Translations under genes and position numbers: made by a program
NCBI GenBank assembly: GCA_030614945.1
Contig: JAUXAH010000089.1
Coordinates: 1 to 7,230, forward strand
Direction of reading: 5' to 3'
DNA length: 7,230 bases
Origin: Phycisphaerae bacterium
GTDB lineage: Bacteria; Planctomycetota; Phycisphaerae; Sedimentisphaerales; SG8-4
Shown: positions 803-7,230 of the stretch, piece by piece
Layout: each line of letters starts with the position of its first letter
Position numbering within the stretch: the first letter of the stretch is position 1
Notes under the pieces: model-generated
Seen by the model: the letters and a program-made list of their open reading frames with translations, nothing else
Told to the model about the DNA's origin: nothing
Databases searched by the model: none

Positions 803-3800
803 ATGGCAGTTCAATTTATTCTTGGCAGAAGCGGTACTGGCAAGACCAGCTATTGCATAAGAGCAATCGTTGATGCATTGCTGGAGCCGGCTGGCGAACA
901 GCGGCTGATTTTGCTGGTTCCGGAACAGGCCACTTATCAGGCGGAGCGCGCAATTCTTGGCGATAAAAGAATAGCCGGCTACAACAGATTGAGAGTGCTT
1001 TCATTTGACCGACTGCAGTTTCTGCTGTCAGGCAAGAATACGGTGAGGCCGCAGCTTTCGCGCATCGGCCGACAAATGATAGTGCACAGGATTCTGCGAG
1101 ACAGTAAAAGTAAATTAAAAATCTTCGAGTCATCAGCGAACCGGCCGGGGCTGGGTCGGCAAATGGCAAAAACCATCGTTGAGCTGCACCAGTATGCAAA
1201 GACGCCGGACGATATTGACCAACTGCTGGGCGAATTGCAGAAAGACGAACATAATAGTTTGGCTGTCTTGAAATTTGCCGATATCGGCCTGATTCTTAAA
1301 GAATATTTGAAGTTTATCGAGGGCAGGTTCATCGACCCTGATATTCAACTGAGCCGTGCGTGCCGAGCAGTAGCGGAAGCGGGCTTTGTTAAAGGCGCCA
1401 AGTTATGGGTAGATGGCTTTGCCGGCTTTACGACAGCCGAGCTTGCAATGCTTGCTGAGCTGCTGAAGGTCGTGGCGGATGCACAAATTGCCCTTTGTCT
1501 GGCCCCGTCAAATATCGATTTGGCCAATCCGGATGCCGAGAAACTCGACCCTGTCGGCATATTCGGCCCGACTGAACGAACGTATATCGCCCTGATTGAA
1601 CTAATAAAAAAATGTAAACTGCGATTGGCTGAGCCGATAATCCTCGATGAGGCGGTTAGATTCTCTTTTTGTCCGCAGCTCGCTCATATCGAGCGCAACG
1701 CATTCAAGTTGGAAGCATCTAAAATGCCTGCGGCTGGCAATATCCGCATCGTATCGGCACCAAACGGGCGGGCTGAAGTCCGATTCGTCGCAAGGCAGAT
1801 ACTTGAATTAGTCAAGGAAAAGGATTATCGATATCGTGACATTGCGGTTATCGCATCGGACATCGACGGTTATCAGCACTATATAAGGGCGTATTTTGAC
1901 GACTATGAGATACCATTTTTTATCGATAAGCGAAAACCGTTGAACCAGCATGCGGCTATTCAGCTTATTTGTTCGGCGCTGCAGGCGGTTACAGGCGGCT
2001 TTTTTAGCAGCGATATTTTTGCTTATCTAAAAGCCGACCTGGTGCCAATAGAGCGCCGGGATGTTGACGTGCTGGAAAATTACTGTCTTGCCTTTGGCAT
2101 AAGCGGTGACGACTGGCAAAGTGGGAAGGAATGGCGTTTTGCAGGCGAGGACAAAGGAGATTTTGACGAGCCCCGCCCCTCGGAGGGGCGGGATGAGCAG
2201 CGGATAAACGAAATCCGGCTAAAAGCCGTCGGCCCTTTGCTTGAGCTTCGGGACAGACTTTACCCAGGTGACAATCCGGCAAAAACAATCAGCGCCGAGG
2301 AGTTCACTCGGATTATTTTTGATTTTATCGATGGTTTGGGTGTTCGTGAAAGAATTCGGAGCTGGGTTGGAGAAGCCGCTGAAGGAAAAGATTATACAGC
2401 CGTTGATGAACATCTGCAGTTTTACGATAAGCTTGTAGATATATTTGACGAGCTTGTCGAGGTCTTTGCCGGCCAAGAGATGAGCTGTGAGGATTATGTT
2501 GCGATTCTGGATTCGGCATTTTCGCAGTTGACGCTGGCTTTCATTCCGCCGACACTGGACCAGGTTCTTGTAGGTTCTATCGAGCGCAGCCGGCATCCGG
2601 ATTTGAAAGCGGTTTTTTTAGTAGGAGCTACACAAAAGCAGTTTCCCGTTCCGGTTAGTTTCGACAGCATATTAAGCGAAGACGACCGCAGCGCTGCGGA
2701 GTCGGCGGATTTCCCACTGGCGGCAACGGCAAGCCAGATGCTTGCCGAGCGCCAGTATCTGGCTTACATTGCATTTACACGCCCATCGCAATTTCTCTGT
2801 GTTACCTACCCTTCGGCTGATGATAAGGGCAGTGCGGTGCCTCGCTCGCAATTTATAGCTAATTTAGAATCGCTGTTTGAAAATCTCAAGGAAGAATCGA
2901 TTGTGGGCGAGCAAATCAGTATTGAAAAGGTCCACGGCGAGACCGAGCTTACAGATTTGCTCTGCAGCCGATTAGGTAAAGATGCATCTGGTGACTTGCT
3001 TGAGAGTTCCGGCGAGCGGCTTGGTGAATTATTAAATGGAATTTGTTCGGATGAACAACCTGGAGAACTCGGCTCAAAAGTTCAATCTGCTATAAATTAT
3101 GACAATCGTGCCGAGCTCGATAAGAGGATAGTCAAAGAGCTTTTCGGTGAGCAGGTAAGAAGCTCTGCGACACGGCTGAGTACTTTTGCGGCGTGTCCGT
3201 ATCAGTATTTTGCCCGATATGTATTGGAATTGAAGGAGCGGGAGGAATTTAAGTTTGAGCCGTTGGACGTGGGCATTTTTTACCATCGTGTTCTGGATGC
3301 TTTGTTGAAGCGGGTAAGCTGCGAAACAGAAGATTTTGCGACGGTTCAGGATGACCGGCTTTTAGAGCTTTTGAGAGAACAAATATCAAAACTTGTCAGA
3401 GAGGACTCGTTTATATCAAACTTTGTCCGTCACAGGCCTCATAACGCTTTTATCATTCACGTTGCCGGCGAGGTTCTTGAGGATTGTGTTTCGGCGATTG
3501 CGCAAATGGTGCAGGTGGGGAGTTTCAGGCCGAGCCGGTCGGAAGTTTCGTTCGGCAAAGCAGGTGCAGGCCTACGTGCCGGCCGAGGGCAACCACACAG
3601 GGTTGCCCCTACAAGCCTTGGCGAATGCGAGATTGGCCTTTCGGGCGGCCGGCTGCTGTCTCTGGATGGCAAGATAGACCGGATTGATGTTGCAAAGCTC
3701 GAAGATGAAAAAGTCGTGATAGTTTTCGATTATAAACGCCGAGACAAATCCTTTAATTGGTCGAAGCTTTATTATGGTCTGGATATGCAGCTTCCAATTT

Positions 3801-4345
3801 ATATGTTAGCTGTACGCAGCGCATCCCGAGGACAGAGGACAGAAGACAGAGGACAGAGGACAGAAGATGCTCTATGCTCGATACTCGATGCACAGGTTGC
3901 AGGGGCGTTTTATATGCCGGTCGAAGTGGCGCCCACAAGGGCCACGCTCGAAGAACTATCGGGAAAAACTGAAAGTTTTGCTTATAAAGCAAAAGGTATC
4001 TTCAACGGTGAATTTGCCCGGGAGCTTGATAAAACAGCTTTGAAAGACAGTAAATTCTATAATTTTTACGTTACTAAAGACGGTGAGCCATACGGCAATT
4101 ATGGAAATAGAGGGGTGTTAAAACCCGCTGACTTTGAAAAGGTTCTTAAATTTACCGAGAGGAAAATAGTTCAGCTGGCTGAAGAAATACTCTCCGGCAG
4201 AATTGATGTCAAGCCATATCGTTTGAGCGGGAAATCACCGTGCAGTTATTGTAAGTACAAGTCGGTCTGCCGGTTCGACTGGCAGATAAATGACTACAAT
4301 CCGTTAGAATCATTCGGGAAAATTCGTGTTCTTGAAGAGATGTGA
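803..4345 (+). CDS. addB: ATP-dependent helicase-nuclease subunit AddB (inactive helicase fold, PD-(D/E)XK nuclease, 4Fe-4S)
   Basis: AddB partners AddA in the complex that unwinds and resects double-strand breaks to make 3' tails for RecA. The protein is 1180 residues, close to B. subtilis AddB (1166). Visible landmarks: nucleotide-binding loop GRSGTGKTS at 8-16; YIAFTRP (655-661), a degenerate echo of helicase motif VI; and a C-terminal nuclease with H828, GKIDRID (956-962), FDYK with D976 and K978, then a QLPIY segment. Cysteines 798, 1147, 1150 and 1156 (C...CxxCxxxxxC) reproduce the AddB iron-sulphur signature, in which the cluster pins the nuclease domain. In characterised AddAB the helicase-like part of AddB reads Chi. 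ATG 803 gives the family-typical MAVQFILGRSG start; GTG 755 would add 16 unconserved residues. The stop lies 7 nt before addA. In-frame repeat insertions occur at about residues 455-469, 917-938 and 1009-1030, all outside the motifs listed. Function is assigned from motifs and synteny and is secure. Confidence 0.94.
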   Translation: MAVQFILGRSGTGKTSYCIRAIVDALLEPAGEQRLILLVPEQATYQAERAILGDKRIAGYNRLRVLSFDRLQFLLSGKNTVRPQLSRIGRQMIVHRILRDSKSKLKIFESSANRPGLGRQMAKTIVELHQYAKTPDDIDQLLGELQKDEHNSLAVLKFADIGLILKEYLKFIEGRFIDPDIQLSRACRAVAEAGFVKGAKLWVDGFAGFTTAELAMLAELLKVVADAQIALCLAPSNIDLANPDAEKLDPVGIFGPTERTYIALIELIKKCKLRLAEPIILDEAVRFSFCPQLAHIERNAFKLEASKMPAAGNIRIVSAPNGRAEVRFVARQILELVKEKDYRYRDIAVIASDIDGYQHYIRAYFDDYEIPFFIDKRKPLNQHAAIQLICSALQAVTGGFFSSDIFAYLKADLVPIERRDVDVLENYCLAFGISGDDWQSGKEWRFAGEDKGDFDEPRPSEGRDEQRINEIRLKAVGPLLELRDRLYPGDNPAKTISAEEFTRIIFDFIDGLGVRERIRSWVGEAAEGKDYTAVDEHLQFYDKLVDIFDELVEVFAGQEMSCEDYVAILDSAFSQLTLAFIPPTLDQVLVGSIERSRHPDLKAVFLVGATQKQFPVPVSFDSILSEDDRSAAESADFPLAATASQMLAERQYLAYIAFTRPSQFLCVTYPSADDKGSAVPRSQFIANLESLFENLKEESIVGEQISIEKVHGETELTDLLCSRLGKDASGDLLESSGERLGELLNGICSDEQPGELGSKVQSAINYDNRAELDKRIVKELFGEQVRSSATRLSTFAACPYQYFARYVLELKEREEFKFEPLDVGIFYHRVLDALLKRVSCETEDFATVQDDRLLELLREQISKLVREDSFISNFVRHRPHNAFIIHVAGEVLEDCVSAIAQMVQVGSFRPSRSEVSFGKAGAGLRAGRGQPHRVAPTSLGECEIGLSGGRLLSLDGKIDRIDVAKLEDEKVVIVFDYKRRDKSFNWSKLYYGLDMQLPIYMLAVRSASRGQRTEDRGQRTEDALCSILDAQVAGAFYMPVEVAPTRATLEELSGKTESFAYKAKGIFNGEFARELDKTALKDSKFYNFYVTKDGEPYGNYGNRGVLKPADFEKVLKFTERKIVQLAEEILSGRIDVKPYRLSGKSPCSYCKYKSVCRFDWQINDYNPLESFGKIRVLEEM
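2165..2209. repeat. Intragenic palindromic element in addB, copy 1 of a 45-bp repeat shared with addA
   Basis: The core is a perfect palindrome with 10-bp arms, CCCGCCCCTC (2172-2181) and GAGGGGCGGG (2183-2192), around one central G. Flanks GACGAG on the left and GATGAG on the right, then ATAAAC, are also shared with the addA copy at 6006-6050; 37 of 45 positions match by eye. It reads in frame as DEPRPSEGRDEQRIN, residues 455-469 of AddB. It lies between the N-terminal helicase-like motifs and the later conserved blocks, in a stretch rich in charged residues and probably an exposed loop. Confidence 0.75.
3556..3620. repeat. Intragenic GGGCAACC hairpin element in addB
   Basis: GGGCAACC (3587-3594) and GGTTGCCC (3601-3608) form a perfect 8-bp hairpin with loop ACACAG. 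The flanks CAGGCCTACGTGCCGGCCGA and CTACAAGCC look like part of the same unit. The strand-reversed core, GTAGGGGCAACC followed by GGTTGCCC, resembles a dispersed repeat I recall from many environmental genomes; this was not searched. It is read in frame as GLRAGRGQPHRVAPTSLG, about residues 921-940. This falls just before the first nuclease-core strand (GKIDRID at 956). The outer boundaries are estimates. Confidence 0.65.
3828..3893 (+). repeat. Two adjoining 7-bp tandem arrays inside addB
   Basis: The first array has six heptamers: GAGGACA, GAGGACA, GAAGACA, GAGGACA, GAGGACA, GAAGATG (3828-3869). They form a 21-bp higher-order unit present twice, encoding RGQRTED twice. The second array overlaps its end: GATGCTC, TATGCTC, GATACTC, GATGCAC (3866-3893), encoding ALCSILDA. 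Together they span 66 bp, exactly 22 codons (about residues 1009-1030). They sit between the QLPIY nuclease segment and the AGAFYMPVE strand, a variable position in AddB. Both sequence types resemble dispersed heptamer repeats I recall from environmental bacterial genomes. Confidence 0.85.
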
Positions 4346-4352
4346 GTGGTTG

Positions 4353-7230
4353 ATGGCTGGGAAGAAGATTAAATGGACGGAGCAGCAGCGGCGGGCAATC
4401 GTTGCACGCGGCAGTGACGTTTTAGTAACGGCCTCAGCGGGCACCGGTAAAACGGCGGTCCTTTCGGGCCGATGTGCCAATATCGTGTCCGACAAATCCG
4501 TATGTCCCGATGTGTGGAGCATACTGGTATTGACTTTTACCGAGATGGCTGCCGAGCAGATGCGTTCGCGAATAGCCGAGCAATTAAGAGCTGCATTTCT
4601 GGAAAACGGCGACGCCCATCTTCGCCGCCAGCTTATGCTATTGGGCGGCGCCGATATCAGTACGATACATTCGTTTTGCAAACGGCTTATCACTGAGTAT
4701 TTTTACGAACTTGGCCTTGACCCAACGTTCGGCGTAATCGATGAGGACGAAGCGAAACTATTAAAAGCGGAGGTGCTCGAAAAAACAATCGACTGGGCCT
4801 GGCAGCAGAGCAACATACGAGCGGCCCTTGAACAGCTCTTGTACCGGCGAGACCTTCGCACAAATGACGGTTTTCCTGCAAAGATAATAGAGCTTAGCGA
4901 TTTTCTGGACAGCGTAGTTTTACGGGAAAAGTGGTACGAAAGGGCATTGCTGCTTGCAGAGGCGGCCAATCCCTTTGCAACTGAGTTAGGTAAGAAACAA
5001 AAAGAAATTATTGCAGACAAATTGCAGCACATCCTAAATCAGCTTCGGCACGCCCGGAGACTCTACGAAAATGAAGGTGTTGGTGGTGATTGGGCTGAGA
5101 AGTGCGAGGATATTTTTATTAAACCCGTTGCGAAATGTATTGAACTTTTGAAGGCCGATGATTGGGGCAAATTTGCCGAAGAGATAAGAAATTTTAAGAA
5201 GCCAAGGGTTAATAAGCCCAAAGAAGTGCCGAAAACAATCGCTGAACTTGTACAAAAGACGGTGAAAAAAGCAGTGGATGCTTTTGAGGGACTCTCGGAC
5301 CTTGCGATTATAAATCCGGACTACCTCGATAAAGTCAGCGCCGCTGCCGGCCTGCAGACGAAGGTATTGATTGAGCTGGTTAAGAAATTTGACCGGTTGT
5401 ACAGCCGGGCCAAGCTGGCGGTCAACTGTCTGGATTTTGCCGACCTTGAACATTATGCCCTGAAGCTTTTGACCGATGAGAGTTCTTCGGAGGACAATCT
5501 GGCACCCTCGAAGACGGCTCTGGCGCTTCGCCGCAGGTACAAATACATATTCGTTGATGAATATCAGGATATTAACCCTGTTCAGCAGGCCATACTTGAT
5601 TTGCTTAGCTGCGAAGACAATGTTTTTGTTGTCGGCGATGTGAAACAAAGTATTTATGCGTGGCGGGGAGCTGAGCCGGAGATTTTTTTAGAACGCTTAA
5701 AGCCCGCCCGCCAGGGGCGGGTTGACCGGGCCGATGCACTTAACGGGCTGCGGGTTGACCTGAATGCCAATTTCCGCTCGGCCAAAGGAATCCTCGATTT
5801 TGTCAACAAGATATTCGGCCGGATAATGACGGCTTCGTTTGCAAAGATTGATTACGACGAGTCGGCCCAGTTGAAGCCGGCACTTACAAGCCGTGCCCCG
5901 TCATCCGTGCCCCGTGACACAAACGAGCCAATTGTCGAGTTTCACATACTTGACGAACAAAACAGAGACCAGGATTTGCAAAACCAGGAGATAAGCGAAA
6001 TTGCCGACGAGCCCAGCCCCTCCGAGGGGCTGGACGAGGAGAATATAAACCCCGTTAGAAATTCCACGACTGTTTCTAACGGGGTAAATGTTATCAGCAG
6101 CCGGCAGCGTCAGGCGGCAATGATTGCCCGGCGTATCAGGCAAATGGTCGGAGCAGATACGGGTAAGGCGGAATTTCAGATATATGATAAGCAGGAAGAT
6201 AAATTCAGGGATGTTGAGTATCGTGACATTGTGATACTGATGCGGTCGCTGGCCAAAAAGGCCAATGACTACGTCGAAGTGCTGCGATTAGCGGGCGTGC
6301 CTGTAAGCTGTCAAGCCACGGCCGGGTATTTTGAGGCGACTGAAATCAGCGATTGTCTCTGCCTGTTAAAGGTCCTGGACAATCCTCAGCGCGATATCGA
6401 ATTAGCCGCCGTATTGCGAAGCCCGTTTTTTAATATTAGCGACACTGAATTAGCGAAGATAAAAATCCACAGCGAAACAGATGAGCATAGCAAAAACTTC
6501 TACGACTGCGTAATCGAATACTCCAACAACGGTGAGGATGCGGAACTGGCGCAAAGGTTGAAAGAAATAGTGGCTGTGATTGAGCAGTGGCGGACACTTG
6601 CCCGACGAGGCAATCTGGCAGATTTGATATGGCAGGTCTATCGCCGGACCGGCTTTCTGTCGTTCGTTTCGGCTCTGCCGAATGGGCAGGCACGCAGAGC
6701 TAATCTTCTCAAGCTCCACGACAGGGCGATACAATTTGAGGGTTTTGTCAGCGGTGCGGGCATCCCTTCCCTGACGCGGTTCGTTGAATTTATTGAGAAG
6801 CTTCAGGAAGCAGGCGAAGATTGGGCCCCTGCAGAGCCGGAATCTGCAGCGGGTAATGCCGTTCGTATCTTAAGCGTGCATAAAAGCAAGGGACTTGAAT
6901 TTCCGGTCGTTTTTTTGGCCGAGCTGGACAGCAAGTTCAACAAAAGGGACATTCAGCGAGATTTTCTTGCCGATGCCGGCGATACGTTGGGGCTGCAAAT
7001 TATCGACCGTAAGTCAAACAGCAAGCTGCGTTCGCTTGCACACGAGGTCATCGCAGAGCGGAAACTGTCAACAGCACTGGCGGAAGAGATGCGTATCCTT
7101 TACGTTGCAACGACGCGGGCGAGAGACCGGCTTATTTTAAGCGCTTGTGAAAAGCCAGGCAATTGCCGGACTATTATTTGCAACGGCTTCTTCTTCGGCG
7201 CCGAATCGATTCCGAGCTGGCAGCTTCGCT
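4353..7230 (+). CDS. addA: ATP-dependent helicase-nuclease subunit AddA (UvrD-like helicase), partial: 3' end outside window
   Basis: AddA is the SF1A motor, moving 3' to 5' in characterised AddAB, and carries a C-terminal nuclease. The frame is open from ATG 4353 to the window edge (959 codons plus one base), with no internal stop. Motifs in order: Q motif WTEQQRRAI (8-16), Walker A ASAGTGKTA (27-35), Ia VLTFTEMAAEQM (59-70), STIHSFC (103-109), Walker B VDEYQD (401-406), III VGDVKQSIYAWRG (427-439), IV LNANFRS (470-476), V VRILSVHKSKGLEFP (837-851) and VI EEMRILYVATTRARDR (911-926). All key residues are present, so the motor should be active. The nuclease domain expected after about residue 950 is missing only because the window ends (B. 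subtilis AddA has 1232 residues). The gene begins 7 nt after addB with no strong Shine-Dalgarno sequence, suggesting translational coupling. Residues about 509-586 form a long low-conservation linker with several repeat-derived segments; another follows motif III at about 450-456. Confidence 0.95.
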   Translation, partial: MAGKKIKWTEQQRRAIVARGSDVLVTASAGTGKTAVLSGRCANIVSDKSVCPDVWSILVLTFTEMAAEQMRSRIAEQLRAAFLENGDAHLRRQLMLLGGADISTIHSFCKRLITEYFYELGLDPTFGVIDEDEAKLLKAEVLEKTIDWAWQQSNIRAALEQLLYRRDLRTNDGFPAKIIELSDFLDSVVLREKWYERALLLAEAANPFATELGKKQKEIIADKLQHILNQLRHARRLYENEGVGGDWAEKCEDIFIKPVAKCIELLKADDWGKFAEEIRNFKKPRVNKPKEVPKTIAELVQKTVKKAVDAFEGLSDLAIINPDYLDKVSAAAGLQTKVLIELVKKFDRLYSRAKLAVNCLDFADLEHYALKLLTDESSSEDNLAPSKTALALRRRYKYIFVDEYQDINPVQQAILDLLSCEDNVFVVGDVKQSIYAWRGAEPEIFLERLKPARQGRVDRADALNGLRVDLNANFRSAKGILDFVNKIFGRIMTASFAKIDYDESAQLKPALTSRAPSSVPRDTNEPIVEFHILDEQNRDQDLQNQEISEIADEPSPSEGLDEENINPVRNSTTVSNGVNVISSRQRQAAMIARRIRQMVGADTGKAEFQIYDKQEDKFRDVEYRDIVILMRSLAKKANDYVEVLRLAGVPVSCQATAGYFEATEISDCLCLLKVLDNPQRDIELAAVLRSPFFNISDTELAKIKIHSETDEHSKNFYDCVIEYSNNGEDAELAQRLKEIVAVIEQWRTLARRGNLADLIWQVYRRTGFLSFVSALPNGQARRANLLKLHDRAIQFEGFVSGAGIPSLTRFVEFIEKLQEAGEDWAPAEPESAAGNAVRILSVHKSKGLEFPVVFLAELDSKFNKRDIQRDFLADAGDTLGLQIIDRKSNSKLRSLAHEVIAERKLSTALAEEMRILYVATTRARDRLILSACEKPGNCRTIICNGFFFGAESIPSWQLR
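5700..5722. repeat. Short GC-rich hairpin in addA after motif III
   Basis: CCCGCC (5707-5712) pairs with GGCGGG (5716-5721) around AGG. An overlapping CCCGCC at 5703-5708 offers an alternative pairing with a 7-nt loop. It reads in frame as KPARQGR, residues 450-456, between motif III and motif IV, where AddA proteins vary in length. The AAGCCCGCC...GGCGGGTT form resembles dispersed hairpin repeats, but it is short enough that chance in GC-rich codons cannot be excluded. Confidence 0.45.
5891..5915 (+). repeat. 11-bp direct duplication in addA
   Basis: CCGTGCCCCGT occurs at 5891-5901 and again at 5905-5915, separated by CAT, a 14-bp period. It is read as RAPSSVPRD, about residues 514-522. The phase differs between the two copies, so the repeat is not conserved as a peptide. 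It sits at the start of the repeat-rich linker of AddA, suggesting slippage or a small insertion. Confidence 0.6.
6006..6050. repeat. Intragenic palindromic element in addA, copy 2 of the 45-bp repeat shared with addB
   Basis: The core palindrome is CCAGCCCCTC (6013-6022), a central C, then GAGGGGCTGG (6024-6033). Flanks GACGAG, GACGAG and ATAAAC match the copy at 2165-2209 in addB. It is read as DEPSPSEGLDEENIN, residues 552-566, in the same phase as in addB. Base 6015 is A and its partner 6031 is T, where the addB copy has C and G, so the stem pairing is kept. It abuts the next palindrome at 6049. Confidence 0.75.
6049..6085. repeat. 13-bp-arm palindromic repeat in addA (PVRNS/SNGV type)
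   Basis: ACCCCGTTAGAAA (6049-6061) and TTTCTAACGGGGT (6073-6085) are perfect inverted repeats around an 11-nt loop, TTCCACGACTG. The element is read in frame as NPVRNSTTVSNGV, residues 566-578. The complementary strand in the matching phase reads YPVRNSRGISNGV, so either orientation gives nearly the same peptide ends. I recall PVRN...SNGV peptides as a recurring signature of repeat insertions in proteins from uncultivated bacteria; that is recall, not a search. It ends just before ISSRQRQAAMIARRI, where the conserved helicase sequence resumes. Confidence 0.85.

Follow-up and report, generated by a model that had tools for sequence, protein, structure and literature searches.

Why should two adjacent genes for dissimilar proteins carry nearly the same palindromic segment, in frame in both? 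The DNA that raises this question is a 7,230-nucleotide stretch from a Phycisphaerae bacterium (hereafter, the window). It holds a gene at 176-643 that looks like a peptide release factor, judging from a GGQ motif seen by eye, then addB (ATP-dependent helicase/nuclease subunit B; 803..4345, + strand) and a partial addA (4353..7229, + strand) that runs past the window end. Homologues of the addB open frame contain PF21445/PF12705/PF13361, and for several of them the source gives the name subunit B; the name of the putative addA rests on its operon partner and on helicase motifs recognized by eye. A first-pass annotation had drawn attention to the segments 2165-2209 in addB and 6006-6050 in addA. 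We confirmed that they match at 37 of 45 positions (82%) and that, at 45 nt, no direct-repeat family listed for the window is longer. Each lies in an open frame, where it is translated as DEPRPSEGRDE in addB and as DEPSPSEGLDE in addA. Their 21-nt palindromes are inverted repeats of each other. The two proteins are indeed dissimilar at these segments, as had been stated, since both segments are inserts that relatives lack.

The repeated unit is shorter than the 45 bp originally proposed. It consists of a 22-bp near-perfect palindrome with the consensus CCC[C/A]GCCCCTC-S-GAGGGGC[G/T]GG, flanked on each side by a 5-bp target duplication that the earlier reading had not recognized and that sets the insertion at 27 bp (22 bp of element plus 5 bp of duplicated target), i.e., 9 codons. 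ACGAG is the duplicated target at both window sites. In copy 1, flank comparison places the left ACGAG at 2166..2170 (+ strand) and the element at 2171..2192 (no strand assigned), the latter coinciding with a nine-residue insert without counterpart in 119 of 120 AddB homologues; the right flank, 2193..2197 (+ strand), reads ATGAG and reflects one later substitution, as the related locus L001 has ACGAG on both sides. In copy 2, flank comparison places the duplications at 6007..6011 and 6034..6038 (both ACGAG, + strand), and the element, at 6012..6033 (no strand assigned), corresponds to a single 27-base gap in L001. Beyond these units, the 45-bp match is made up of the common target plus coincidence: on the 3' side, addB has normal AddB sequence that also occurs in relatives, and addA enters the duplication of an insertion from a second family (see below).

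The closest relatives that we compared are metagenome-assembled genomes (MAGs) of Phycisphaerae/Sedimentisphaerales. L001 (CSMAG_1316) shares 91% identity with the window in the best AddA segment, and P0001, apparently the AddB of this relative, is 88% identical to the window AddB. We used the genome of L001 (G001, ~3.5 Mb) as a stand-in for the source genome of the window and searched it for dispersed copies, a search that the first-pass annotation had suggested for the source genome. This search uncovered 142 matches to the 21-base core at ≤2 mismatches and none with a reversed-pattern control, so the window repeat is not a product of chance. The exact 15-base core occurs at 81 places in G001, and among 89 genomes from the same family 12 contain exact cores (81 in G001, 16 in G082, 15 in G080, 8 in G081, 7 in G023, and 1 in each of seven others), as do 4 of 42 genomes reached via loci of relatives. 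The centre base of the 16 G082 copies is oriented 14 to 2 relative to the contig strand. Only G001 was sampled deeply. The deep sample comprises 62 stretches and 1,065,798 bases (1.07 of 3.5 Mb, about 30% of the assembly); leaving out copies <60 bases from stretch ends, it holds 127 copies at ≤4 mismatches, 114 of them at ≤2. Tandem and nested 22-bp copies were seen at L150 12512-12559, L153 2064-2111, and L161 14626-14661.

Comparison with relatives revealed sites at which the insertion is missing as an exact unit. In AddB, 119 of 120 homologues read ...DF-DEQRINEIRLK or similar at the copy-1 site; nine additional residues are present in the window and in P0001, where the sequence is ...DFDEPRPSEGRDEQRINEIRLK. 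The AddA insert is found in none of the 39 relatives that cover the site, L001 included (39 of 42 alignment rows, the distant ones aligning poorly there). These counts (1 of 120 and 0 of 39 covering rows) rule out ancestral conserved segments as the origin of the two inserts. At the DNA level, addA of L001 differs from the window at this site by one gap of 27 bases and one substitution at the remaining target, and the 27 extra bases in the window are one 22-bp palindrome and one copy of ACGAG. Single exact 27-base gaps also separate G080 from L140 (91.6% identity) and G081 from L141 (75.8% identity, with smaller gaps elsewhere in the alignment).

We then compared 43 copies of other genomes with sampled G001. 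Fifteen aligned across the site and 28 had no alignment there; among the 15, 10 are filled in G001 too, 2 are empty (27-base gap), and 3 are unusable. On this comparison, an artefact of a single assembly was rejected. One of the 10 filled sites, L225, has different flanks and may represent an independent insertion nearby. At another shared site (L222 in G080, L185 in G001), both target copies and the paired stem bases differ at once, which fits two independent insertions or conversion. Additional hosts were examined in G001. An isomerase/ceramidase-type protein at L161 carries two inserts that are filled in none of 120 homologues; the first, of 14 residues, looks nested, and the second site of the gene is empty by nine residues in all 120. 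A TsaB-family gene (PF00814; L134 10387-11223) contains three copies in a linker that is hypervariable in homologues, where the alignment is too gappy for an empty-site count: 96 and 16 of 119 homologues were scored as filled, which goes against a clean empty site. The TsaB homologue P0126 has EPRPSEGRDE in this variable linker.

The target duplication is a property of most copies. Among the 114 G001 copies, the bases preceding the core (-5 to -2) are identical to those at +1 to +4 past the base following it in 91-93% of cases per position, with flanks of different copies as a null (35-49%). The spacing of this match is exactly 27; spacings of 25, 26, 28, and 29 give ≤34%. A perfect 4-bp core duplication is present in 91 of 114 copies and absent from 23. 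The next base agrees in 61% on the left (null, 37%) and 68% on the right (null, 41%): both agree in 46 copies, one alone in 31 and 24, and neither in 13, so that at least one agrees in 101 of 114. Our reading of this pattern is a 5-bp duplication around a 22-bp element inserted in either orientation, and an exact 5-mer duplication is kept in 81 of 114 copies (55 + 60 - 34). The commonest duplicated 4-mers (n = 91) are CGAG (16), TTCA (15), TGAA (14), and CTCG (9); the target therefore resembles R-Y-(GA or TC)-R-Y. In the four other genomes sampled (43 copies, from 46 listed places), the perfect 4-mer was found in 34 copies (13 of 16 in G082, 12 of 15 in G080, 5 of 6 in G081, and 4 of 6 in G023) and the 5-mer in 32.

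None of the six element variants typed has a stop codon in any of the six frames. Since, in addition, 22 + 5 = 27, each insertion lengthens the host gene by nine codons without interrupting its reading frame. We scanned the G001 sample for inserts of 8-60 bp bounded by CC[C/A]G and C[G/T]GG with a duplication and found 105, vs. 5 in reversed sequence. The core length is 21 in 80 of the 105, a total that also includes second-family inserts. Since 16 of these 80 are intergenic (58 lie wholly in predicted coding sequence [CDS] and 6 partially), the length of 21 is intrinsic to the core and does not arise only through filtering by genes. None of the off-length variants that we take as real in either family (22, 23, 23, 58, 62, and 64) lies wholly in CDS; one 50-bp CDS insert of the scan has poor ends and is taken as chance, and the off-length second-family pairs of 59, 74, and 98 stand outside this placement count.

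Genic and intergenic copies and their reading phase were tabulated for the G001 sample using a home-made hexamer-based caller (828 genes, 84% coding), as the first-pass annotation had suggested. Most copies are genic: 84 of 114 lie in predicted CDS, 23 are intergenic, and 7 are partial. With partial copies dropped, the CDS share is 84 of 107, compared with 84.5% of target 4-mers in CDS (P = 0.11). The phase distribution in CDS is 18:20:46, compared with 22:24:39 for target sites (P = 0.26). Selection for one reading phase was rejected, the 46:20:18 bias being non-significant against the available target phases. Since both CDS share and phase follow the target sites, intragenic insertions look nearly neutral, as judged in one genome with a home-made gene caller.

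The first-pass annotation had also read a compensatory stem change into the two window copies. The base pairs on which it relied, 2174 C/2190 G and 6015 A/6031 T, are present. In the 127 G001 copies, the corresponding core pair 2/18 is A/G in 49, C/T in 38, C/G in 38, C/A in 1, A/C in 1, and A/T in none, and is thus unpaired in 89; A/T occurs elsewhere, in the window addA and in G080 (L221). Most copies have two different ends, CCAG and CCCG. Unpaired combinations are therefore the norm in G001, and compensatory evolution was discarded as the source of the A-T pair. Across the seven inner pairs of the 127 copies, there are 20 paired double changes, 46 one-sided changes, and 2 double unpaired changes, and 16 of the 20 fall at pair 7/13 in two recurrent variants. 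A known structured RNA was likewise considered and rejected, with no match in the window at Rfam gathering scores. The two-part proposal of selection on, or copying of, a nucleic-acid hairpin thus divides: copying at the nucleic-acid level is borne out by the 142 copies and the empty sites, and selection seen through compensation is not. Selection on the hairpin as an RNA or DNA structure in host genes, visible as compensatory substitutions, could draw on the paired double change at pair 7/13 in 16 of 127 copies. However, the excess of one-sided over paired inner changes, the largely unpaired 2/18 position that is never A-T in G001, and the existence of homologues without the inserts, whose host genes evidently do not need them, make it extremely improbable. 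The stem pattern fits palindromic source copies followed by ordinary decay.

The second family lies next to copy 2. Seven bases downstream of the copy-2 duplication, a left target duplication TAAAC (6046..6050, + strand) precedes a 34-bp element with ends CCCGTTAGAAA/TTTCTAACGGGG (6051..6084, no strand assigned), which encodes NPVRNSTTVSNGV in frame in addA and is present in L001 and absent from L002; the right duplication, TAAAT (6085..6089, + strand), carries one later substitution. Elements of this family span 34-106 bp and have duplications similar to those of the 22-bp element. In the G001 sample, 27 short inserts with cores of 33-159 bp are bounded by the ends CCCGTTAGA[A/G] and their complement; the 4-base duplication is perfect in 19 of them, and in 21 the core length is a multiple of three. 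A search of 30 genomes found the end CCCGTTAGAAAT in 17, with counts of 87 in G001 (control, 0), 63 in G023 (control, 1), and 49 in G003 (control, 0); the other genomes have one to three each, overlapping the control, which reaches 3. The CCCG ends and the target type common to both families suggest that one activity may have moved both. Twenty stretches around second-family ends without an exact partner were inspected, and nearly all have a near-match partner 35-95 bp off; L255 and L258 have none. Partners of these ends at 0.3-4.3 kb showed an absent duplication or a poor match and gave no candidate transposon.

Other repeats were observed in and around these genes. An in-frame GGGCAACCACACAGGGTTGCCCC segment at about 3560-3612 (AddB) also occurs in P0001 and is missing from P0002-P0008; the similar peptides CPGQPHGVAPT and CPGQPHRVAPT occur in two other G001 proteins (L161 and L174), and the segment is probably a third in-frame repeat family. 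A GAGGACAGAGGACAGAAGA direct repeat at 3828-3867 (AddB), encoding RGQRTEDRGQRTED, is not found in P0001. The CCCGCCCGCCAGGGGCGGG near-palindrome at 5704-5722 (AddA) has an altered form in L001 and makes the site 9 bases longer than in most aligned relatives, with no target duplication seen. The intergenic CTTCGGCTTCGCTCAGGGC-type sequence at 61-170 is, by eye, a known-looking repeat, and kindred peptides such as HSEPKRPLALSEAEG lie inside AddB of some relatives.

What kind of mobility could account for these data? With good confidence, we read the repeat as a 22-bp palindromic mobile element that duplicates 5 bp and adds nine in-frame codons, moved, as we propose, by a transposase acting in trans. 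The flanks and empty sites show that a non-coding 22-bp palindrome inserts at R-Y-(GA or TC)-R-Y-like sites and duplicates 5 bp. The target duplication by itself points to the transposase in trans, probably of the staggered-cut (DDE) type; its recognition sites would be the C-rich ends CC[C/A]G, which are short. It could also mobilize the second family (34-106 bp; ends CCCGTTAG), whose targets are similar. The hairpin probably serves mobility rather than being selected for in host RNA or protein. At a profile cut-off of E ≤ 0.001, the draft MAG of G001 has no match to PF01609, PF13701, PF00665, or PF01526, and that of G082, with 16 copies, has none to these or to PF01797. Assemblers lose multi-copy insertion sequences (IS), and draft MAGs drop repeated IS, so this absence says little. 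Matches to PF13701, PF01609, and PF00665 in G023, G002, G003, G080, and G081 (including L252) have no end pair. Two ends bound by ordinary transposases would not fit on 22 bp of DNA, which makes a classical cut-and-paste cycle doubtful for this element. It is conceivable, and we propose it tentatively, that the 22-bp DNA itself is mobile through an integrase that needs to read no more than short ends (CC[C/A]G) and a 6-bp target of dyad-like form, spreading nine-residue inserts. Since its length plus duplication is a multiple of three and all frames are open, such a unit could spread in coding DNA almost unopposed.

The copies might instead be scars of a larger transposon that had CCCCGCCCCTC- and GAGGGGCTGG-like ends, made a 5-bp duplication, and then lost its interior, so that the two ends were fused. 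Reduction of IS605-type transposons to fused terminal sequences, as described in the portion of PMC3119063 available to us, offers a precedent; the similar target and duplication of the 34-106 bp family and the existence of 24-bp cores and other centres (3 of 105) would also agree with it. Against this stand the uniform length of the 114 copies at ≤2 mismatches, the near absence of intermediate lengths, and the nested and tandem copies and subfamilies, which suggest that the short unit itself moves. Moreover, no long element with these ends was seen in the 1.07-Mb G001 sample of a draft MAG: end pairs 61-4000 bp apart numbered 18, vs. 7 in the control, the long ones being, by eye, pairs of separate copies or chance. 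Fused scars are therefore unlikely. A repetitive extragenic palindrome (REP)-type element that a tyrosine transposase of the RAYT or IS200-IS605 type mobilizes in the form of a single-stranded DNA hairpin would agree with the size and palindromy, REPs measuring 20-40 bp in the part of PMC3733652 consulted. Matches to PF01797 (Y1_Tnp) do occur (2 in G001, one of them over the cut-off, 1 in G080, 5 in G081, and 4 in G023), and L246, the G001 match below the cut-off, has a second-family end motif within its 3.2-kb locus. However, the 22-bp element is absent from all 12 Y1_Tnp loci, G082 combines 16 copies with no Y1_Tnp match, and the ends of the consensus carry neither a GTAG nor a CGTC tag. Furthermore, the element duplicates its target, whereas IS200/IS605 elements make no larger target duplications, according to the accessible text of PMC2817692. 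Movement of this kind is very improbable.

For a 22-bp unit, about the footprint of one transposase, our data show that the target is cleanly duplicated, that empty sites exist, and that spread has been recent. If confirmed, this unit would challenge the lower size limit of transposable DNA and, if itself mobile, it is perhaps the smallest known to make a target duplication. It also offers a natural codon-phased source of nine-residue insertions, through which one could ask how often conserved enzymes such as AddA, AddB, and TsaB-family proteins tolerate peptides of this kind. Because annotation shows such elements solely as odd protein inserts, they may be overlooked in uncultured bacteria.

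Comparison with known systems sets the element between several classes. As the first-pass annotation had remarked, it is similar in principle to the Rickettsia palindromic elements (RPEs), a likeness that holds for a dispersed palindrome inserted in frame into protein genes with empty sites in relatives; we compared RPEs by description. In the excerpts consulted, RPEs are palindromic, genic and intergenic, and in frame in unrelated conserved genes (PMC10969869, PMC2229807), measure 105-146 bp, and have their target duplication entered as "?" in Table 1 (PMC2229807); intragenic RPE-4 and RPE-6 have been equated with short CGTC REPs (PMC3733652, in part). The 22-bp element differs by its size, its clear 5-bp duplication, its fixed 27-bp insertion, and its phylum. 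Most described bacterial miniature inverted-repeat elements (MITEs) are longer and mainly intergenic. Inverted-repeat ends, a fixed 5-bp target duplication, many copies, and the lack of coding capacity ally our element with MITEs; unlike them, it is uniform, lies below 50-500 bp, and is without a unique interior or known parent. The MITE size is given as 50-500 bp (PMC10969869) or 70-300 bp (PMC3733652), with degraded QMITE1 copies down to 39 bp (PMC10969869), in the sections available to us. REPs, in the corresponding part of PMC3733652, are palindromes of 20-40 bp, tagged with GTAG/CGTC, some in genes and predominantly downstream of coding regions, and a word search of that text found neither "duplication" nor "target site". 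The 22-bp element is likewise a multi-copy palindrome of this size, but is mostly intragenic (84 of 114), duplicates its target, is found near none of 12 Y1_Tnp loci, and is untagged, its flanks varying with the target. Outside bacteria, the yeast mitochondrial GC cluster, as far as the consulted part of PMC4478555 describes it, is also a short GC-rich palindrome with short direct repeats like target duplications; it has 42 bp, flanks of AG or ACT, and a debated mechanism, whereas our element resides in a bacterial chromosome and has a variable 5-bp target. No bacterial palindrome of ~22 bp with a target duplication appeared among the titles and abstract openings listed in a literature search that mostly did not reach subscription papers. 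Collectively, the 22-bp element resembles REPs in size, MITEs in its duplication, and RPEs in its in-frame habit, and it departs from each of them in at least one tested feature.
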